A stretch of DNA of 34,929 bases from Gonapodya prolifera JEL478 (lineage: Eukaryota; Monoblepharomycota; Monoblepharidomycetes; Monoblepharidales; Gonapodyaceae). Below, piece after piece: positions 1-34,929 of this stretch (position 1 is its first letter; each line of letters starts with the position of its first letter). Position numbers and translations under genes: made by a program. The notes beneath the pieces are model-generated. The model did no database searches. It was not told the origin of the DNA and saw only the letters and a program-made list of their open reading frames with translations. The DNA lies in the NCBI GenBank assembly GCA_001574975.1, contig KQ965869.1:31985-66913 (forward strand). Direction: 5' to 3'.

Positions 1-1857
1 GTGATCCTACCAAACGTCGTGGTCTTGTTATTAATGGCCTTCTTCCACTCCGGGATATCCTTATCGGGGTCCACCGTGAACCCTCTCAAATCCTGCGCGA
101 ACGTCCGCTCGCCTTGGTCCGGCATAGGATCCACCCAGGGCTGGTTCAAATCCCTCGGCACGTCCATCTCGGCTTCGAGCTGCTGGGACTTGAACTCTCT
201 CCGTTCCTTTGCCAGCGATGCGCCCTGGATGGCGGCGCGATTCATGGTGCCATCAGGGTTCTTGACGATCTTGACGGGGCTCAATTGGACAGCCCCCCGT
301 GTTTGACCGGCAAGAAAGGCGGGCTCGTCGTCCCGGATTTCAATGTCCAGCTCTTCCTCCTTCTCCTCGTAATTGAGCACGCCCGAGTCCACATCGTCAA
401 TATCGGGGTAATCCGCCGGGTCCAGCACGCCCGACGCGATCAGCTGCTTAATCTCAAACCGCTCCGGGCTTGAAATCCTCTTCCGCCTCGTCGTCGCCGC
501 AGCGGCACCGGCGGGCTCATCGCCCATCCCGGGTGCGGTCTGTGAGCGAGCCTGGGCGCGTTCGCGGCGAAGACGGTCTTCTTCGGCGAGTTCGGCGGGG
601 GTGCGCACGCGGAGGTTGGGTGTGAGGTCGCCGCCGGTGGATTGGTCGACGTCTTTGATGGAGAGGGAGACGCGCGTGCCGGCGACGGAGAGGACCTGGG
701 TGGAGTAAGGGGGGATTGGGTGAGCGCACGTCCTCCCCGGGCACCTCCTCCAGAAAGAAGGGAAGAAAGACTAGGGAAGAAAAAGACCAGGAAAGCTCCA
801 TCGAACTCCTCCCATTCGCACCGTGTGCCTAAAACATCCTCCGTCCAGACACTCCAAGCAGGCATAAAGCCTCCGACAGACTCCTCGGCATCCGGCGCCT
901 AGGGCTTGCTGCCCTCGCTCGATCGCCCAGCTCCCTCCGCTGACACTCGACACTCACCTTGACGTACACCGGCTGCCCCCTGCTCACCACATCCTGCGGG
1001 TGATTCACTCTACTCGCACTAATCGAGGACACATGAACCATACCCTCCCACCGCTTGCCACCGGCTTGGGGACGGACATTGTCGAGTGTGACAAAGCACC
1101 CGAAATCGCGCATGTTTGAGACTTTGCCCGTGTATATTTTGTAGAGTTGTGGGGTCTCGTCGACACCGTGGTGGTGCGAGCCCCGGGATGCGCGATGGTC
1201 GTCTCTGTCCCGTCCCCTGTCCCGGTCGTCTCTGTCCCCCCGGCCCCGACCCCGGTCCCGATCGCGGTCACGGTCACCCCAACCCCAATCATCGTCTCTA
1301 TCGCCACCCCGTCGCGCGTCGCGTTCGTCAGCCTCTCGCCGTGCAGACGAGATAAGACCCTCGAGCGCCGACACCGTGTTCTCGACTTTCACCTTGCGCG
1401 GGTCGGCGTCGTCCTCGTCCGGGTTATACGCCGGCTGTGGATCCGAGTCTGGGATTGCCAGTCCGGGGAATTTCTTGACCCTCTCGCGCTTTGCCTCCTC
1501 CCTGTCCGGATCGACCTCCTTGCCCGCATCACTCTCGCCCTCCCACCCGCTCGTGCGCTGCTTCTTCGTCGCCGTGTCCGCACCGTCCGCTGTCTTCCTC
1601 TTCTCTCCGCCCTGTGTCGCCGTCGCTCCCGTTGACAGGGTGTTGACCAGTCTGTGGATAGACTCGAGCAGCGAGTCCGGCAAGTCCATTTCCCTGAGGG
1701 CAGCCTTGAACGCAGCCAGGTCCGGGTTCTCATTGTGCACGTGCAGCAGAAACTCGGCGACGGACTTGTCGTTGACGCCCACGTGGTTCTGCACCTCCGC
1801 GCTGATTTTGGACACGAGCGACAGACGCTCAAGCTTGGCGAGCGCGTTGGCGGACAT
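1..1857 (-). CDS. PRP22: Prp22/DHX8-type pre-mRNA-splicing ATP-dependent RNA helicase, N-terminal part (3' end beyond the left edge)
   Basis: Prp22 is the DEAH-box helicase that releases spliced mRNA from the spliceosome in the nucleus. Two exons are visible: 1857..958 and 695..1 (531 residues), separated by a 262-nt intron with GTGAGT and CACCCAG ends. The chosen ATG at 1855-1857 opens MSANALAKLERLSLVSK, a family-like start. Residues about 180-230 are an Arg/Asp/Gly-rich repeat (RDRDRDRGRGRG). Residues about 233-320 form an S1 RNA-binding domain (YKIYTGKVSNMRDFGCFV ... EGMVHVSSIS), completed after the intron by VLSVAGTRVSLSIKDVDQ. Further on comes a linker rich in acidic residues, with TFAQDLRGFTVDPDKDIPEW shortly before the edge. 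The helicase core, including the DEAH motif, lies outside the window. The family usually has about 1,100-1,200 residues, so roughly half is missing. The frame is open throughout. Identification is firm because both S1 halves and the linker match the family in order. Confidence 0.93.
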
Positions 1858-2203
1858 CGCGTGTGGTGTGGGTGGGGAGTGCGAGAAGTGTAGGGGTGGC
1901 AGAGGCGGAGTGGAGTGGGGCGGAGTGACGATCGCTGCGGGAGTGGGGAGGGGTCCATACAAAGTGAATGGCAATACGCAAGGGCGGCCTCTTTAAAACC
2001 GGCCGTTGCAACCCATGAACCGCGAGGTGTGACACGCCGGTCGTCGTGCCCGGCTCGTGACTTTTTGGGTTTGGCCCGAGCTGCGGTTCGGTGCCTTGCA
2101 TGGAGGAGACCCAAATATAATCCAACTGAGATCCGTCTTACCGAAACTGACCGTGTTGCTGTACATCAACCATATATTTACACTTCACCCCCACTTCTTC
2201 CAC
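1858..2203. other. Intergenic: PRP22 promoter and 3' flank of the DUF3445 gene
   Basis: The stretch separates the DUF3445 stop (2204) from the PRP22 start (1857), both on the minus strand. It must hold the PRP22 promoter and the end of the upstream transcript. I see no convincing gene, RNA or clear TATA box. Short open frames here are GC-rich or continue antisense to PRP22. Confidence 0.6.
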
Positions 2204-13509: not shown

Positions 13510-16497
13510 ATGGGATACATGGCCATGATTCCTGGTCACGGCGATTCGCAGTTATACAACACCAATTACCGCGGCGCCAACGAACAGCAAACATCCCGTA
13601 TACAGAGCCACGAGCCCCTCCCTTCCACCGGCTCATCAAACCTTGATTCGAGCGTCATGTTATCGGCGATTCCTTTCTCACCTGGATTCACCGATATATT
13701 CGGAACCGGAAGTACTACGGACATCAGCCCGGCGTCACACGCCCCTACCGACGTGTTTACCTCATACGGTCACTATGAAAGCTTCCAGTTCGACGGAGCT
13801 CCGACCTCGGTGGATGACTACGACCCTTGGGGAGACTCACCGGCCGTATCCCCAGAAGGCCACGCTATATCGGTGGACTCGGCAGAAGGCTCGGATGCTG
13901 GGGAGGATAGTGATTTTGAGGACGGGATGGACCTCGTCTCTCCAGGGAATATACAAAACACAGGGGAGGACAACCGTGACGACTCGGACTTCCAAACAAT
14001 TCCGGTTCTGCAGGATCAACAATCGAGTGGCACAAAGTTCCGTCCATCCACACTCAAGCGAAAGCGAAAGAAAGGCGCCGACGTCACGTATGCCGATATA
14101 ACCGAAGAGCGGCCTTACATGTGCTCGGAATGCGGTAAAGCCTTTTTTCGAAGGTAATTAAGGTGACCGTTCCATCACAGTGATGTGTGCTGACGTGTTT
14201 TCTGCATTTTTGTAATATAGTGAACATCTCGCCCGCCATTCCAGGATTCACACCGGCGAGAAACCTTAGTGAGTCAAAATCTTGCGCCTTAGTCTCAATG
14301 GGGACGAGACTCATCGATTCGTTGCAATTGTATCTCAGCCAATGCAATGCGATACATTGCCACAAAAAGTGGGTACTATACGGACTCCGCATCATGCATG
14401 CCCCAAAGTCACGCGTGTGTAACCCCATCACCGACATTTCCTTTCACTAGGTTCGCACGATCAGACGAGCTTAAACGGCACGAACGAGTCCACCAGGCCG
14501 GATCCTACGATACCAGCTCGCACAAGAAATCCGCCTCAAAATTGTCGGCCGTATCGTCTGGGCCGTTAAGGACCCAAAAGTCGACATCCAAAACGACCCG
14601 AACGGCTGCCCGTGATTATGACACGGAGTCTGAGAGTTTGGAGACCTCGCGATCTGCGGCTGCCACAAAACGATCGATGTCGTCTCGAAAGCGGAGGTCT
14701 GCGGTGATCGTTGACGAAGGTTCCACCCCCCCGTTAAACACGGAAATTACCGCAGTCTCGAGCTCGCCCCCCGTTCCATCTCCTCTAATTCCCACCAAAC
14801 CCGACCCTCCCATGACTCCCATTCATCGGCCGTCATCCGCCACGCTTTCGCTCCAACGGACGATCACTCCTCCCGCCCGCCCGGACTCGGCCCGCTCTGG
14901 CGAAGAAACCAACGGCCACTTCCCCTGCACATCCGTCGGATGTGGGCGGGTGTTCTCCCGAGCGTCCCACTTGTCGCGACACCTTCGAGGGACCCACGGC
15001 GTGGTGGACGGGTACGCGTGTGGGACGTGCGGGGCGAGATTCGCACGACAGGATACCCTGCAGCGACATGCGGAGACGTCGCACGCCAAGACCAGCGAGG
15101 CACCCAAACGGGATAACGGAAGCGTGGCCATGAAAGTGGAGAGCGGGAGTCCGCTTTCCTCAGGGCCAGGCACTCCTCCGAGCGCGACGGGAACTGGTCA
15201 CCCTTTGGGTAGCCTGCCGGGAAATTGGGCGCTGCCAATAATGACACCCACGGCTCCGACACCACAGGAATCATCTCCTGCAGAGGCAGTTAATATGCCA
15301 CCGGGGTATTTTTACGGACCGTTTCATGCGTCGCAGCTTACCAACCTGGCACCGAATGAGACCACCTTTGATGTCCCCTTTCAAAGCACTCCACCCATTC
15401 CCTTCGATCCCAACCTCGCAGCTTCACTGCACCTCGCTCGGCTACCGTCAACCATGACCCTCGCTGCTGCCCAACAGCTGACATCCTTGATGGGGTTCCC
15501 CGGTACTGTCCCGCCACACGTTCTCCTCGGCGCACCTCCATCCTTGACACATTTTGCTCGACAAAACCCGAGTCCCTTCGTGCCTGACTACCCACTGCCG
15601 ACGTCTATGCCGGTGTTCACCAACCCCGTATTCGGGTTCTCAGCGCCAGCACCTGGTTCATTTATGTCTGCACTTTCGATGGCTAACAGTCCCTCCGTGC
15701 ACGCGGCGCGGAGAGTCGAGCCTCCACGGTCTGAGGCGATGCAGGTCAATTCAGACGCGGTGATTGGTGATGACGCCTGGTTGGCCTTAATGATGGGTGG
15801 AGAAACACCCGATGCTGGTGCAACTGCCAGATTACTGCAAGCCGTTGCAAATCAGGGTGGCGTCGCTCATACTCCGAGTTCTCATGGAATGCCGAGTGCC
15901 TTATCGAGTGCGAAACCAGAACGGCTCCTCTTCCCGAATCGAGCAGCCGCACAAGCGGCTAACCATGGAAGTAATAGCGTGCCGACACCCACCTTGCAAA
16001 CTCCCCCAATCAATATTCCCCATCAGCAGTTTCGGAAATTGGATTCTCACTTGGACGACCTCTTGTCGCATCAAACACCTCAGCCAGTGGTGCACGGACC
16101 GCGCCCTGTTCGGTTGGTTCCAGCTGGATTGACAAGTGGGCTTGGAGGTTTCAACAGAAGGAACGTGCCGGGGTTTCCCAGTGTGATTCCTCGTACGTCA
16201 TCTCCTTCGACTGCATCCTTCCCCATACCATCTGCCGCCGAATCCTTCTCTTCTGCACCACATCCCTTGCTAACGACATATCCGGACGTCTCACTGAACC
16301 GCGCTACACCTTCTGATGCAGCCCCTCGGAAGCGCGGACGAACCAACAGCCTGTCGAGTGCGTCAGTGTCCCCGACAAGCCTAGGCGCGGCCAAGATGCT
16401 GGAGCAGTTGAGGGCGCAGGGAGGGATGGAAGAGCTGCAGAAGATCCTGGAGAAGGCGGATATGTCCAAAATCGTGGGAACCGGGAGGATCCATTGA
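13510..16497 (+). CDS. C2H2 zinc-finger transcription factor with two separate finger pairs
   Basis: Four exons, 13510..14153, 14221..14268, 14339..14368 and 14451..16497, encode 922 residues. The finger pair is split by three introns that keep frame: finger 1 C205-x2-C208-x12-H221-x3-H225 (YMCSECGKAFFRSEHLARH), linker TGEKPY, finger 2 C233-x4-C238-x12-H251-x3-H255 (CNAIHCHKKFARSDELKRH). Exon 3 is just 30 nt and supplies both cysteines of finger 2. A second pair follows at C400-x4-C405-x12-H418-x4-H423 and C431-x2-C434-x12-H447-x4-H452. A basic stretch (TLKRKRKKGAD) precedes finger 1 and could be a nuclear localisation signal. The rest is Ser/Pro-rich, probably disordered activation or repression regions. 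The first pair resembles the Mig1/CreA class (SDELxRH, TGEKP), which represses genes in glucose, but the extra pair is not typical and orthology is not claimed. It is head to head with the fructose-2,6-bisphosphate enzyme gene. Confidence 0.9.
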
Positions 16498-26839: not shown

Positions 26840-27938
26840 TTAACCATCCGGGTCCTCCACATCCTGCTCTTCGGCGCCTTGAGTCTCGTGCAGACGGTAG
26901 CACCCGTTTTGCCCTCCAATTACCGGAACATAATACTTTGTAACCGAGGGAAGGCGTTCCCTTGAATGACTTGGACGAGTAAATTCAAAGTGAGAGGCTC
27001 GACTAAAGTCACATCCCCCAAATCAAGTACTTCCAAACACTTGTGCTGCTTGACCTTGTCGCGACCACCCTGTGCTCCAAAATCGAAAGCGTCCACCTCA
27101 CTCTCCGGACCTCCGGACCGAGCTCCAAATGGTGCGCGTTGGGGAACAAACGACACTGCACCGAGAGGGGTTGAGCCGTCCCGAGACTGATCCGGGGCGC
27201 TCGGAGACATTCGAGGCATCCGGCCTTGGATCGCGAGTTGCGACAGTTGGAGAGTTGGAAAACAGGATGGTTTCGCAGCCTAAAAGCGCACTTACCCTAT
27301 CACACGCGTACTCCCCCTGCCACTTCTCGTTCTTTAACACCCCCAATCAGCTTCAAAATGCAGCTTTGTCACATCCAGTACGTTTGCCAGCTGAACAATC
27401 CCCTTAATTGACAGCAGGTCCGACCGGACACCAAGCGACTCAAACTTGACCTTTCCGAACGGGAACACTCGCTTCAACGCCGCCTTAACCGTGTCGCATA
27501 TCTCGGGTCCTGGCGTGACTTTCGCCTATGTTGGTCCGAGTCCAGCGGGGTACTGGAGGAACAGTCATCGTTCTGAGAGACGGTATGTAGCCCAAGGGTC
27601 GTCGATGCTCTGGAGGACGTACGGTACAATGGTCTCTTTCAAACGATCAACTTCGCCCGCACCCTCCGCAATCTCGCAATTCGTCCATCAAGAAGCGGGA
27701 CTTGGAGAATGCGTAGATTGAAATCGAGATGGTTAGAGTTGATGCTATCGGCAGACTGTTTACAAAACGGTGAGCTTGGGGGGCACTGCTCTGAAAGGAG
27801 AGCTCTCGAACCTGCTCTGATGGTGGACTGGATGTCGCGGAATCGCCGGCACACAAACGGGACATGGGAGAAGAACGCCTTCTTATCGGCGAGCAGAACG
27901 AGGATGCGAAGGAGGATTTCGTCCGGTATCACGTCCAT
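26840..27938 (-). pseudogene. Decayed F-box/LRR gene
   Basis: ATG at 27938 opens MDVIPDEILLRILVLLADKK and HVPFVCRRFRDIQSTIR, a good F-box. Coding sense then moves between frames: EVDRLKETIVPYVLQSIDDP (about 27660-27600), GKVKFESLGVRSDLLSIKG and LANVLDVTKLHFEAD (about 27450-27345), LFPNAHHLELGPEVRR (about 27155-27100), CLEVLDLGDVTLVEPLTLNL and GNAFPRLQSIMFR (27040-26920), and an acidic tail GAEEQDVEDPDG to TAA at 26840. These are LRR-like strands in the expected order, but stops and frame changes separate them and only some could be introns. I call it a pseudogene; a badly resolved many-intron gene is the alternative. Confidence 0.5.
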
Positions 27939-28198
27939 TGGAGTCTTGAAAGCAATTGCTGTGGTCTGGATGGTGAGGGTACGCACAAACCACGTCGAAA
28001 TGCGAGACCTTATGAGTGTAGAGTGTGAGTCTTTCGACGATGAAGAACCAGGAGCCACTGCGACTCGAAATACCACAAGGCACCATGGAGCGCTCAGTGC
28101 TGAATCCATTCACAGCAAGAGCTGCCGCTCAAACAAATGGAAAACCCGACGATATTATCAACCTTTTCTCAATGAGGTTTGAAGATAAAGGGAAGCAA
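27939..28198. other. Intergenic, upstream of the decayed F-box/LRR gene
   Basis: Should hold the old F-box promoter. No independent gene is seen; open frames on either strand lack motifs. Confidence 0.5.
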
Positions 28199-28201
28199 AA
28201 A

Positions 28202-28228
28202 CTGCTGGCTAGTCTGTACACTGCAAAA
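28202..28228 (+). repeat. 3' flank repeat of the HMG array, copy 1
   Basis: GCTGGCTAGTCTGTACACTG followed by an A run starts a block that stays similar to copy 3 (32590 onwards) for about 300 bp, up to the tail exon of each HMG gene. It lies downstream of the HMG relic, in the same relative position as the other two copies. Confidence 0.7.
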
Positions 28229-28367
28229 CGCTCTCCTGCCACACACGCATGTTGTCGTGGACATTACTCCTCCCGCTGCAAAAAACCCAAAGACGCACTA
28301 CAATATTACTCCAACCTCGGCCCTCCAAAGCGCAAGTACATGCCCGCGAGCTCGCACGATGTTCCCG

Positions 28368-29172
28368 CTACCCCGCCGTCCCGTCAAAACCACCTCCCTT
28401 TACACCCGCCCGACCCCCCCCCTCTAACTCCCTCTCTCCGCTAGCCATATCCTCACAAGTGCGCTTTCCCCGTCCCCGCCCCCGCCTCGTCGACACCCAC
28501 GATCCTTGCCGACCTCGCGCGTGCGTATGGCACGGCGGCGGTGGCGAAACCCGTGCGAAGAGGTCCTGCGGTCGCGATCGCGTTTGGGCTTCTTGCCAGG
28601 GCGGCGCAAGTGGTCGCTGGTACTGTGTGGTCGGATCCACAAGGCACAGAGGGCGAGGGTGTGGGGTGAGGTGGTGGATGAGGTAGTGAAGTGTGGTGGG
28701 CGAGACATGAGGTCAAGTGAAGTGAGGTGAGTACACCCGCAGTGCAACCGGGATACACCTTTCAGGAAGCCACCTTACGCGCCACGTAAAGCTCACCCGA
28801 TACTTCGGATAGGTCTCCTGATGCATCTGGTTCATCTCCCTCGCTTCTGCATGGTAGGCGGATTTACCGTCTTCGGGGAGGTCGTTCCATAGTTCGGCGA
28901 TGATGGTGGATACTAGTGGTGTTCGTGGGTGCGTTGGTGTGTGGTGCGGGGTGTGGGGGGGCGGAGGCGGCAGCAGCAGCGGTGGTGGCGGCGGCCAGGA
29001 GAGCGTGGGGTGATGGCAGCAGGGGACAAGTGGGGCCAATGAGTGGAAAGGCGGATGGGCGGCGACATCAATTAGACCGAAACACGAAACAGCATCACGC
29101 TTTACGTTGGCCAAACCCGGGCTCTCGGGCTGAACTTGCTCGTGGTAGTCGGTGCGGACAATGGGGAAGGCG
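28368..29172 (-). pseudogene. HMG-box gene copy 1: 5'-truncated, frame-shifted relic
   Basis: Two exons of the HMG box survive: 29172..29099 (FPIVRTDYHEQVQPESPGL) and 28912..28797 (STIIAELWNDLPEDGKSAYH, MNQMHQETYPKYR). Their lengths, 74 and 116 nt, equal those of copy 3. The exons that should lie upstream, with the long N-terminal region and the RRPMN-like start of the box, are absent; 29173-29870 holds no trace of them. The tail exon begins near 28622 but reads YQRPLAPPW instead of the YGD-x-x-RRPGE tail of its relatives because of a one-base insertion; DHLRRPGKKPKRDRDRR is readable in another frame and VDEAGAGTGKAHL in the third. I call it a dead duplicate. HMG boxes bend DNA; this copy lacks a start codon of its own. 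Confidence 0.7.
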
Positions 29173-29686
29173 CTGCGTTTTGCCGTGAGGAGATGAGCAC
29201 TGAGGTGGATGTGGCAGCAGGGAGAAATGCAGTTGGCAATGGCGGTGCGTCAAACCAGACTGCAGCGGCCAAAAAATCGAGGACTCGCGCGGGTCCCGAA
29301 TTCCAATACCTCACTGTCTTTCGAGTCGTGCTATTGTCTTCCCCACAACAATACCCGCACCTTCCCCAGCATTCACTTCATCGACCTCTTCACCCTGACC
29401 TCCTCCCTCGTCTCTCCCACCTCCCCTTTTACGACCATGGTTTATGGTCTGTTTGTGAGTTGCTGCAGTCGGCCAGTTTCAACTTCCCTATGTTCCCCCG
29501 TCCTCCTTCACAATGAAGAGCCAAAAGCACTGCGTCTCGAAACAGCGCGAGGCGATTTACAGTTTCGAATCGACTTGACCTTACCACCAAGTCATTCGCC
29601 GCGCGCCTCAAGCAAGTGCAAACAAAACCCGACGTTCCATTACTCTTCCCCGTTGAAGTAAGTTAAAAAAAACGAAAGCGACAGTC
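29173..29686. other. Spacer between HMG relic copy 1 and copy 2, no gene seen
   Basis: This is where the 5' exons of copy 1 should be, but no FNFAP/DQPLVV-type sequence is found on the minus strand. Open frames on the plus strand are CT-rich and unsupported. Confidence 0.55.
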
Positions 29687-29714
29687 GCTACTGGCTCGTC
29701 TTTACAATGCAAAA
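29687..29714 (+). repeat. 3' flank repeat of the HMG array, copy 2 (diverged)
   Basis: GCTACTGGCTCGTCTTTACA, then ATGCAAAA, aligns with copies 1 and 3 with several changes. It sits about 160 bp past the stop of the complete HMG gene, as expected if the 3' flank was duplicated with the gene. Confidence 0.55.
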
Positions 29715-29870
29715 CCGCCACCTTCGCCATGGACATCGACCTTATGCTCTGTAGCAAACCCAACCACACGCCGCGCCAAAACCCGGTCCACCTTCAAACG
29801 CGCCGCACACACAATTACCACTTCTTGTAGATGTCGCTCCCCCTTCGATCCAGGAGCAACGGATGCACGT

Positions 29871-31854
29871 TCAGACGTAAGCCACCCCCGCCTCGTCAAC
29901 CGTCATGGTCAGCTTCGAACGCTTACGACTGCACCGCGCGGACGGTGTACGAGCGGAGGTCCTGTGCTCAGTGTTTTCGCCGGGGCGGCGCACGAAGTCG
30001 CCGTACTGCGGGATATTCCAAAACACGCAGGCGAGCCGGCGCCGGGTGAGGTGAGGGTGAGGTGAGTACAACCGCCAACGGGATGGGATTCTAGGAGGAC
30101 GCCTCGCGTGAGGAGTGAGACTCACCTGGTACCCAGACTGAGACATATGTTTCAAATGCTCCGCTTTGGCAAAGTAGGCGGAACGAACGTCGTCTGGAAG
30201 CTGACGCCAAAGTTTTCCGATGATAGACGACACTTGTCGCAGTATGGGTGGGATCGGGATCCGGGGAGTTGGGGGGAGGGGGGTAGGGGGGAGTTGTAGA
30301 TGGCGGTGAAACCGATGAGTGGGCCCGCATCAGCAATAAACCGAGATTCCGACGGATATTTACTCACACTGTGTTGTGAGCAAGCCCGGGTTCTCGGCTT
30401 GCACTTGGTCGTGGCATTCGTTGCGGAATATAAGGAAGGCACTGGTTGGATCAAAGACGATGAATGTCAAAGTGAGTACTTAGAACACTTTTTTGCGCAC
30501 AGACTCGCACGTCTCCCATCTTCGCACTCGCACTCGTTGCTCAACCCTAACCCTGTAGCGCCACCACACCAGTACAACCACCCACCCCCGCCAATGCAAA
30601 CTCACTTCAAAGGCTTTCTAATCCTGGCCCGTTCGTCACTCATCTCCCCGCTCCCTCTCACTGCTCCCCCAACAGTGTCGACTGCCCTCTTTTTCCTCGC
30701 CTGACTCAGCGGTATCTCCTGCCGCATCTTAGGAACAACACCGCTGGGGGGGAAGGGTTGGCGGTTCCGGGCCGGGATGCGGATAGATCGAGGTGCCAGT
30801 CCTGGAGTTGAGGGCGGCTCGTGACTGTGTCTGTGTCTGTAGATTGATGTGGATTTGGGAGATGAGTGGTGATTTGGGGTCATGGACGTGGTGCTTCTGA
30901 GGCTTGAGGGGGAGGATGGGATTTCCGAGGAAGGGATTTCCGGCCCCGGCAGGTTGACGTTGAGGAAGAAGGGAAGACTGCTCGCTGGTGGCATCGAGAC
31001 GACGAGCGGTTGGTCGACGTGCGGAGCAAAGTTGAATTCGATGGGAGGATCGGCGTGCGCTGTGGGCGCCATCGTCATGGGTAAGGGGGGCGGCAATGGT
31101 ACTGGGACGTGGTATTTGATACTGGTACCGATGGTGGAGAGGGGCTGACACAGTGGATGGTCCGACATGAGGAACGGAAAGCACAAGTAATTTGCCCTCC
31201 TGGGTTCCGACACGTACCTGTGCAGGTTCATGATCAATATGGAATACTTGTCATGGGAGGGAATCGTTAATAGAAGATTATTCACGTGTGCGTGTGCGAA
31301 AATCAGACCATATACAAACCTTCATGTGTGTACGCATCAATATCTGCACCGATTCCAGCACCAACTCCCACATATCCAATCCCACCGGCCAACCAAGCGT
31401 CGGAAGACATGGAATTGCACACATCCCACGGTTCCATGTACACCCCACCCCAGACAGCCTTGCCCGTATGTGTCATCAAGTTCATTCTGTCAATGTCTTG
31501 TGCCGGAATGCCCAGACTGAATAGGGACGGAGGGCACAGCGCATCTAGGGTGACAGTGCAAAAGGGCGAGATTGCGTCGTAGTTCGAGGGCGCTGGTATG
31601 GGCGGAGAATTGGCGGCTGGCCCCGTTGAGACTAGGTAGCGAGGCACGAGCGGGACACTCTCCATAGCGGGGTCGAATGCCTGCTGGCTCGTCATCGCAC
31701 CCTCGTGCATGCCATGTGTAGCGCTGGTACCGCTGGTACCGCTGAGAGTGGAATACCGGACGTAGAAGTCGTTTTCGGGTTGCGGCTTGAAACTCCACAG
31801 CTCTGCGAGCGCGTGGTCGCAATCGACCGCGTATGGCGAGAATAGGGAGTACAT
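29871..31854 (-). CDS. HMG-box protein copy 2 (complete)
   Basis: Six exons, 31854..31320, 31246..31218, 31144..30606, 30441..30368, 30232..30126 and 30005..29871, encode 472 residues. The N-terminal half (MYSLFSPYAVDCDHALAELW; MEPWDV near residue 142) is not a known domain. Exon 3 holds a block shared with copy 3, FNFAPHVDQPLVVSMPPASS and LPFFLNVNLPGP, then a Ser/Pro-rich stretch and a basic region ending IRKPLN. The HMG box (about 363-428) reads RKPLNAFLIFRNECHDQVQA, ENPGLLTTQ, LSSIIGKLWRQLPDDVRSAY, and is followed by YGDFVRRPGENTEH and a basic tail. HMG boxes of this MATA/SOX-like type bind the minor groove in a sequence-specific way, so a nuclear regulator is likely. Targets are unknown. 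All junctions keep frame; the 29-nt exon 2 is supported by its match to the copy 3 exon ending (PAQ versus NAQ before a GTACGT donor). Confidence 0.82.
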
Positions 31855-32589
31855 TTCCGTGTTGTTTTATCTTTGCGTGTGCCAGTCCGCGACCGATTGG
31901 GCTGTTGTGTCTGTCAAACAACCAGGTCAGGGAAACAACCTTGCCTGTCCGCACGGATATAACACTTTGACCATATCGGGGCATGCTCACACTCACCCAA
32001 TCTTCTGCCACTACCACCGGACAGAGAGATGCGTGTGAATTGGCGCAAGGGTAGCTATGGCGCATACCTCAGTCCTTCTACCGCGGAACCGGGTGGTAGG
32101 TGGCAGGGCAGTGGGATGGAGGATAGGCGTGCCTTGATCGCGGAAGTATCAACGTCAATTTTTCCGGTGTTTACATCTGTGGGGAGTTTGTGGGTAAGAG
32201 GTCTTGCGGTTCCAAGGTGGATGGCTTGCTGGTTTCCATTTAATGATGATTCTTAGAGGGAAGTGGAGGCGTGCAACATTGCGCATGCGAATAAACTTTG
32301 CTTGTGTTGCGAAGAATACAATATCCCCTTTGATTGCGCTACAATTTGAAAATCGCCAATTCGGCATGTGGCGCACTCTGCGGCACCGCCACGTCGGCCC
32401 TCTTGCCCAGGTCCCTTTGCTCCGGTACCGCCCTAGTGCATCTCTCAACGTCAGACTTGAAAAGCAAAGTCAGTGACAGCACAGAGCAACAGATCCCCGT
32501 CCTTCCTTCTGGCTGCAACAAGTAGACGACTAGCATTGTGAGTACGGGGGCTCTATTGCCCTTTTCTCGATGAAATGAGTTACAAAAAG
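31855..32589. other. Promoter of HMG copy 2; no other gene seen
   Basis: 735 bp between the ATG of copy 2 and the 3' flank repeat of copy 3. Short open frames on both strands lack motifs. No clear TATA box near the copy 2 start. Confidence 0.5.
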
Positions 32590-32616
32590 CTGCTGGCTAG
32601 TCTGTACACTGCAAAA
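32590..32616 (+). repeat. 3' flank repeat of the HMG array, copy 3
   Basis: GCTGGCTAGTCTGTACACTG plus an A run, identical over this core to copy 1. Similarity continues with gaps to about 32890, sharing CT-rich segments and the end of the tail exon. Confidence 0.7.
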
Positions 32617-32847
32617 AACTTTCTCCTGCCCCACACAGAGGTGGTGGACATTACACACCTCGCTTCCAACGTTGCAAAACCCCAAACTCCAACCTCGGCT
32701 CAAACCTCAGTCCTCCAAAGCTGCAAGTGCGCGCGCACGCGCGATGTCGCGGTGGCCGCCTGCCCGACCCTTCAAAACACTTCCTTTCCCACACACCGGC
32801 CCACCCTCTTCCCTCCCCTCCCACTCCCTCTCTCCGGGGGCTCATCC

Positions 32848-34929
32848 TCAGAAATGCGCCTCTCCCATCCCCGCCTCGTCCAAATTCATGGTCCTTGCAG
32901 AAGTACTCTTACGGCAGCGTGCGGCGCGCTTGCATGTCGAGGACCTGCGCTCGCGCTCGATCTTCTCGCCGGGGCGGCGCATGTGGTCGCCGTACTACGT
33001 GTCGCGTGGAGCGGGTGCACGAGGCGCGAGGCGAGGGCGGCCGGTGTGACGTGGGTGGGAGGCGAGGTGCAGCGGTGAAGGATGGCGAGGACACAAACAA
33101 ACGAGTTCCGGATTACCGAGTTGAGGTGAGGCACCACCACGCACAAGAACCGCGACTCACCCTATACCCAGGATACCTCTCCTGATGCATCTGCTTCAAC
33201 TCGCTCGCCTTTGCGTAGTACGCCGACTTGATGTCTCCGGGAAGGTTGTGCCACAGCGCGCTGATGATGCGTGATACTGGTATCGTTCGTGGGGTTGAGG
33301 GCGGTGGGAGAGCGGGGGAGAGCGGGGGAGAGCGGGGGAGAGCGGGGGAGAGCGGGAGAGCAGGGAGCGGTGGTACCAATGAGTGTGAACTGTGATTGCG
33401 CACGGCGAATGGACGGTGGACCGGACTCACGCTGAGTAGTCTTCAACCCGGGGTTCTCGGCCTGCACTTGGTCGTGGTAGTCTGTGCGGAATAGCATGAA
33501 GGGGCTGCACATGCCCATGCGGTGTGACGCGGTGACGTGGTCCGGTCGGTGTCGGTGGCGCAATCAGCGTGAGAGAAAAGAGAAGTTTGAGGTGAGTCAG
33601 AACATTCACTATGTACAGACTCGCAAGTCGCCAGTCCCACACGACCCTCGGCCAGGCCGGCCTGACACTCCCCCCCCCCGCACCCTTCAACTCACTTCAT
33701 AGGCCTCCTTACCCTCTCCGCCTCCCCCTCCCCTTCCCCACCCCAACCCCCACGCCTCTTCTTCCTTGCCTGCACAAACTCCCCGCCCGCCAACCCTTGC
33801 CTGAGCACGGCGGCGCGGGTCTTGGCGACGGAGCCGGGAGGAAGTGTCGCGTGGATGCGGGCGGGGATCCGGAAGGCGCGTGGTGCGAAGGTTGGGGTGG
33901 GGTTGGTGGAGGTGGTGGAGGTACCCGTGGAGCTGGACCGGGAGTAGCGGTGTGACGGAAGGGTGGACGCGCCGCTCCTGGTGCTACCGGGGCTCGAGGG
34001 GGAGGAAGGGGAGGAAGGGGAGGAAGGGGAGGAAGGCCCACCCCCAACCAGCCCCAACGGGCCTGGGAGATCAAGGTTGACGAAAAACGGCAACCTGTTC
34101 GCGGCCGGCATGGCGACGACCAGTGGTTGGTCGGCGTCGGGTGCGAAGTTGAACGGGATGGGCGGGTCGACGTGGACGTACGCGTGGCTGCGCGTGACCG
34201 CGGAGGGAGGTGGAGACGGTGAGGGTGCGGTTGGTGGGGTTGGTAAGAGGTGTTTGAGATTGGGAGAGGCGGGGCCGAAGGTGGGGAAGAAGGTGGTGAT
34301 GGGCTGATAGCGCATGTTCAGTGTACACGGGGAAGCCGGAGATGAGCAAGGGAAGGAGCACGGGCTGCAGGCGCTGCGGGTTGGAACACGTACTTGTGCA
34401 TTCTCGAACGGGTTCACTTGCGTTTGCCATGCGAGGAGTTGCGCATGGTCGAACGGCGAGAGTTGAGTGCTCGTGCCGGGCTCGTACTTGACTTCTGCAG
34501 GTGGGTAGTCTGTGCGAGTGCGTGTGCGAGGGGTGGGGGGATTGTGAGAGTGAGATGGAGCGTGTCTGCCAAGAGAGGAAAAGAGACAAGAGACAAGAGC
34601 CGCGAGCCGAGATACGTACATTCTGCGTGCGAGTGCATCGACTGCATTTGCATTTGCAACTGAATGTCCGTACCTGCCATTCCCATTCCTTGCATACCCT
34701 GCATTCCTCCCCCCATCCCCATCCCCGTCTGCATCTGCATCTGCATCTCTGCTGCGTTCATACCCACACCCGGGATTCCACCACTCACGCCCGCATCTCC
34801 AACCACACTGATCAACCCTGGGTCGGGATACACATCCCACGGCTGCATATCCTCTGGTCCTCCATATCCGAACGAACTAGCCTCGCCCGCATGAGCGAGG
34901 GGTAACAGCTCGAACCCGCCAAATGCCCC
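32848..34929 (-). CDS. HMG-box protein copy 3 (5' end beyond the right edge)
   Basis: Visible exons: 34929..34620, 34509..34394, 34303..33696, 33504..33431, 33276..33161, 32994..32848, 456 residues. The first holds MQPWDV and a Met/Gln repeat (MQMQMQTGMGMGGGMQGMQG). Exon 2 has KYEPGTSTQLSPFDHAQLLA. Exon 3 has the shared block FNFAPDADQPLVVAMPAANR and LPFFVNLDLPGP, then an SSP tandem repeat and a Ser/Thr/Arg-rich stretch ending RRPMN. The HMG box reads NPFMLFRTDYHDQVQAENPG, LSRIISALWHNLPGDIKSAY, ELKQMHQERYPGYR; the tail begins YGDHMRRPGEKIERERR and ends MNLDEAGMGEAHF. The usual NAF of the box is NPF here. Exon lengths 74 and 116 match copy 1, and 74 matches copy 2. The frame is open throughout, so this copy looks functional. 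The start codon is not in the window. Confidence 0.82.
33311..33358. repeat. 10-bp minisatellite inside an intron of HMG copy 3
   Basis: AGCGGGGGAG is repeated four times exactly, with a shortened fifth copy. It lies in the intron that splits the HMG box (33430-33277), close to its middle, and is not visible in the matching introns of copies 1 and 2. Confidence 0.9.
34000..34036 (-). repeat. 9-bp coding repeat (Ser-Ser-Pro)n in HMG copy 3
   Basis: GGGGAGGAA on the plus strand is repeated about four times in frame and encodes SSP units on the minus strand. The unit length is a multiple of three, so copy-number change would not break the frame. Confidence 0.85.

Follow-up and report, generated by a model that had tools for sequence, protein, structure and literature searches.

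The window analysed here, a stretch of 34,929 nucleotides (C139:31985-66913) in an assembly of 47.56 Mb and 207 contigs, contains three HMG-box units arranged head to tail on the minus strand inside positions 28368-34929. We refer to them as A, B and C in order of increasing coordinate. A previous sequence-only reading had described three copies in one orientation within 6.6 kb, with a first box exon of 74 nt throughout and a second of 116, 107 and 116 nt; our gene models, for which exon boundaries were set by hand from splice consensus and reading frame, agree on each of these points. The HMG box is split over three exons, with the exon that precedes the 74-nt exon ending in the first residues of the box (RRPMN in C, RKPLN in B and RSMN in A). 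Introns are GT-AG in 13 of 13 cases (five in C, five in B and three in A), the boundaries having been chosen with GT-AG in mind. The spliced proteins match PF00505 (HMG_box) with scores of 73.2 (C), 57.6 (B) and 52.6 bits (A), all above the cut-off of 25.4 bits and far from chance.

Copy C (32848..34929, minus strand) is an HMG-box gene with exons at 34929-34620 (partial), 34509-34394, 34303-33696, 33504-33431 (74 nt), 33276-33161 (116 nt) and 32994-32848 (ending in the stop codon). On its right, the window stops at a run of 5012 N (from C139:66914 onward), which removes the 5′ end of C and could conceal further copies; the frame is open over 456 aa and reaches this gap. The box of C (33161..33712, minus strand) is the least changed of the three as judged by private residues (2 C-only, compared with 13 A-only and 12 B-only) and is followed directly, in frame, by an RRPG tail, YPGYRYGDHMRRPGEK. 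Upstream lies an N-terminal motif (34052..34183, minus strand), DPPI.FNFAPD.DQPLVV.MP.A..LPFF.N.DLPG, and downstream a 3′ flank (32553..32847, minus strand), of which the portion 32747-32553 aligns to A. One intron of C holds a tandem repeat with a 10-nt period (window 33306-33360). Copy B (29871..31854, minus strand) is a complete HMG-box gene of 472 aa with start and stop codons and exons at 31854-31320, 31246-31218, 31144-30606, 30441-30368 (74 nt), 30232-30126 (107 nt) and 30005-29871. Its box is short of 3 residues near the C-terminal end, within the 107-nt exon, and is again followed in frame by an RRPG tail, GYQYGDFVRRPGEN. The N-terminal motif of B (30941..31060, minus strand) is 70% identical to that of C over 40 aa, and the 3′ flank of B (29503..29870, minus strand; portion 29803-29503 aligns to A) ends beside the start of A. 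By their sequences, B and C both look intact, but C is cut by the gap.

Copy A (28368..29438, minus strand) is truncated at its 5′ end and consists of four pieces (29438-29377, 29172-29099 (74 nt), 28912-28797 (116 nt) and 28622-28368). It starts 15 residues ahead of the box, a short way past the 3′ flank that B has in common with the other copies. The long N-terminal exons are missing from A, and a search of the genome for the N-terminal motif did not find it there. The tail exon carries one extra base after TAC, and the frame that continues from the splice site lacks RRPG; what remains of the ancestral tail sits in the two other frames, one of which reads DHLRRPGKK while the other ends VDEAGAGTGKAHL, resembling the end of C. 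Hence a tail exon that opens TAC-GGC-GAC and encodes an RRPG tail, which the sequence-only reading had given to every copy, is found in frame in B and C and is disrupted in A. The same holds for its picture of an array of long, multi-exon regulators, which does not extend to the truncated A with its tail out of frame. The 3′ flank of A (28029..28367, minus strand) is shared with B and C.

Taken together, we consider it likely that this is a small tandem array produced by local duplication of one single-HMG-box gene, with A decayed, in a zoosporic fungus that carries two strongly diverged haplotypes. A maximum-likelihood tree was constructed from 24 HMG boxes of this genome alone, using 27 of 41 profile matches (several being exons of one box). 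The 14 omitted matches are repeat copies on C79, C42, C52:153370 and C22, further domains at C87:155591, C87:172117, C19:318973, C19:329361 and C1:6720, and weak matches on C16, C82, C44, C21:443462 and C27; some of the rows included are partial or hand-spliced. In this tree, A, B, C and a copy on contig C57 form one clade (support 96/95), which supports descent from one ancestral unit; the boxes did not group with different paralogs, the outcome that had been named in advance as contradicting it. By its sequence, the C57 copy is a clear pseudogene: a stop codon interrupts its box, a deletion spans the point where the box starts, and ~500 extra bases precede the tail.

The claim of a single ancestral unit is borne out not only by this clade but also by the equal exon layout and by sequence shared in the last intron and 3′ flank. 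Box proteins are 61% (A-C, 69 codons), 64% (B-C, 69 codons) and 46% (A-B, 65 codons) identical, and the box exons are 69-76% identical at the DNA level. In the region preceding the box, B and C are 51% identical over 167 aligned residues, and the genome search for the N-terminal motif gave three matches, in C, B and C57, and no others. The 3′ flanks, judged against 200 triplet-block shuffles per pair, align with scores of 406 for A-C (77% of 188; shuffle maximum 143), 340 for A-B (72% of 275; maximum 142) and 199 for B-C (73% of 167; maximum 172), and the flank of the C57 copy also passes when aligned with C (204; maximum 178). A blastn alignment of A and C (764 columns, 66%) extends from the 3′ flank across the last intron, within which A and B also share a 19-nt stretch at 95% identity. 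We also observed a 39-nt stretch in each 3′ flank (28197-28235, 29683-29721 and 32585-32623) in which A is 90% identical to C and 69% identical to B.

Differences between B and C are in excess at third codon positions, both in the box (18/14/35 at positions 1/2/3, p 0.004) and upstream of it (62/55/93, p 0.003), and this excess points to constraint. Changes private to A show no such excess (10/8/5), whereas those private to B (9/10/16) and C (6/3/11, p 0.038) sum to 15/13/27; at 12 sites all three copies differ. When third positions are compared with the others, A-only changes differ from the pooled B-only and C-only changes (Fisher p 0.042). It is this small test together with the truncation and the lost tail frame that makes A probably a pseudogene, a decaying copy.

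Several results weigh against parts of this interpretation. The branching order inside the A/B/C/C57 clade has low support (63/33 and 69/0), and two of the three flank alignments of C57 fall below their shuffle maxima (124 with A, maximum 136; 85 with B, maximum 185). No significant third-position excess was seen between A and B (22/18/30, p 0.2) or between A and C (19/13/26, p 0.11), nor for the tails of B and C (15/11/16, p 0.61) or the B-only changes by themselves (p 0.087). The codon-position test on A is small, with 23 changes, and nominally significant only; the box exons of A are still open and reach the 52.6 bits given above; and the ratio of non-synonymous to synonymous rates between A and C is 0.28 (NG86), a value that includes constraint on C. 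All of the gene models are hand-made. Finally, AlphaFold2 gave no confident fold for the long N-terminal exon of C when run with the B and C57 rows (three sequences; mean predicted local distance difference test score 51.1, predicted template modelling score 0.11).

A different account would hold that all three copies are functional, diversified regulators; A would then be a short HMG factor that begins at a start codon of its own (29438) and has acquired a new tail. An in-frame ATG does lie 15 residues before the box, the box is open over three exons, and a basic tail frame is open to 28368. We nevertheless regard this as unlikely, given the lack of a third-position excess in A-only changes and the remains of the ancestral tail in two other frames. 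At the position where B has leucine and C has methionine, which we take to be the site that intercalates into DNA in SRY, A has proline, and the splice donors of A (GTGAAT, GTGATG and GTGAGC) depart from the GTGAGT found in both B and C at the same three introns. It is extremely unlikely that the array is an assembly artefact in which alleles or a collapsed repeat were joined, even though the assembly breaks nearby: besides the gap to the right of C, contig C152 opens with 2114 N a little before it would reach the array, and contig C61 breaks off at base 280638, still within a first exon, which is related to exon 1 of B (49% over 43 aa; 75% over 108 nt). The window itself contains no N. The C2H2 zinc-finger gene at 14293-16497, 14 kb from the array, has a second copy on C152 (87% identity); the segment 20800-28100 aligns to C152 in four pieces of 79, 84, 90 and 74% identity (the 74% piece being ~100 bases long), reaching window 26241; and the sequence right of the gap is 88% identical to C61. 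From these matches we infer that C152 and C61 represent the other haplotype (or subgenome). With 69-76% identity between box exons, the copies are less alike than five of the six presumed-haplotype pieces (79-90%; the sixth is the 74% piece), which makes joined alleles unlikely.

The likely other haplotype is interrupted at the same point as this one. The end of C61 within a related first exon means that the other haplotype carries at least part of one related gene; the stretch upstream of the start codon of B also matches C61 (72% of 94), and our guess from its position is that the C61 gene is an allele of C. Beyond the gap, on its right side, collinearity between C139 and C61 is lost. This loss of collinearity, the divergence of the presumed haplotypes and the presence of single-box HMG factors could all be expected if the array were, or belonged to, a sex-determining HMG locus of the Mucoromycota type. 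However, the TPT adjacency of the Mucoromycota and microsporidian sex loci was not found here: a search for TPT gave four genome matches at E up to 1e-5 (C2, C5, C7 and C9) and none on C139, C152 or C61, although gaps or weaker exons could hide some. The one other gene compared, the zinc-finger gene 14 kb away, is diverged as well, which indicates that divergence is not special to the array. We therefore view such a locus as quite unlikely. A search for STE3 had no match in the genome and none in any control genome, so this negative shows nothing.

In line with local duplication, F-box-like domains flank the array on both sides: one lies to its left (window 27642-28109; 22.5 bits, below the cut-off of 24.3), and another lies right of the gap (L002:2103-3899; 29.7 bits). 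The latter and its neighbours in L001, L002 and L027 are repeated sequence, F-box-like where tested. A stretch of 86 bases at the edge of the C152 gap (C152:2115-2200) is 100% identical to C139:58225-58140 (window 26241-26156), inside a DnaJ-domain frame, in contigs that otherwise mostly differ by 10-20%; this could be an assembly overlap or gene conversion. As regards the RNA helicase that adjoins the HMG gene at the Mucoromycota and microsporidian sex loci, an S1-domain exon was seen 26 kb from the array (window 832-1992). A profile search of the genome returned nine matches to a radial-spoke protein (best 57.7 bits, on C3) and 40 matches to Zn-cluster factors at E up to 1e-5; the two families together we take to indicate a zoosporic (flagellated) fungus, and contamination could also account for them. 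The radial-spoke matches led us to reject a dikaryotic basidiomycete as the source, while the Zn-cluster factors still place the genome within the fungi.

The array is not the only HMG cluster in the genome. Three further HMG boxes lie within ~2.5 kb on C30 (L007, C30:370700-373900) and again on C78 (L008, C78:31700-34800). Because two of these boxes lie on one strand in the same frame, and may be parts of a single two-box gene, the cluster comprises two or three genes. C30 and C78 look like the two haplotypes. A separate, dispersed family of closely similar HMG-box-like exons was seen on C79, C21, C42, C52:153370, C22, C109 and C51 (L012-L017, L021), for example PAPFVLFTREKRPEVKAAFPDLSFATIPATIGNMWKALSNEEKQ; similar sequence follows in most, and the family looks, from its sequence, like part of a multicopy or mobile element. 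Outside this genome, one report describes a tandem of five HMG-box genes at one locus in Rhizophagus irregularis, one HMG gene being upregulated when two isolates coexist (PMC7490403). The second cluster and the Rhizophagus tandem show that clustering is not exceptional, and the earlier view of such an array expansion as unusual is not supported. The HMG tandem is a known kind of arrangement, of which the present array is a new instance; a literature search on HMG-box gene clusters arising by tandem duplication found no paper.

The array shares with the Rhizophagus tandem the arrangement of HMG-box genes at one locus in an early-diverging fungus; the phylum is different, and it is the arrangement that was compared (PMC7490403). 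With SexM/SexP of Mucoromycota and the microsporidian sex-related locus, which in Encephalitozoon places an HMG gene and a weak HMG gene side by side, it shares an HMG-box factor; unlike SexM/SexP, it consists of three related units and not of two alleles of one gene. The same source gives the TPT-HMG-helicase synteny as absent from the chytridiomycete genomes then available (PMC2866331). Sequence matches of the C box in the PDB are led by an SRY/HMGB1 chimera, followed by yeast ARS-binding factor 2 and then SRY and SOX boxes, and it aligns to SRY without gaps over 72-73 residues, including RPMN and YPxY. SRY and SOX are an animal family, and the likeness is at the level of sequence, without evidence of orthology. 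By their tails, the feature compared, B and C may belong with the fungal MATA-type single-box factors that carry a basic RRPG tail. A profile of the N-terminal exon of C found no PDB chain at E up to 1, and NCBIfam assigned neither C nor B to a family, giving a single, meaningless match for C57 (E 0.17).

By analogy with the HMG-box family, B and C would be regulators that bind the minor groove and bend DNA, their long and probably disordered N-terminal region would bind partners, and A would make no working factor. The array may have arisen by unequal exchange within a region where F-box and HMG genes cluster, and the same process may keep it unstable. The process regulated is a guess, development or mating, as with other fungal single-box HMG factors. 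A bolder proposal, which we rate as very unlikely, is that the array is a fast-turnover, haplotype-specific HMG locus that sets mating or self identity, with copy number and content differing between haplotypes; in a variant of it, B transcripts could take up the truncated A box as an alternative exon, which the splice phases of the models would allow. Among the titles and abstracts of the open-licence literature found, none deals with the mating-type locus of a zoosporic fungus, which makes an HMG cluster in this genome at least a lead. The array is mostly a case of ordinary local gene duplication, at a spot where the assembly breaks. It illustrates fairly well how members of a regulator family are born and die, since one genome holds a copy near the common form (C), an intact but altered copy (B), a truncated tandem copy (A) and a dispersed pseudogene (C57).

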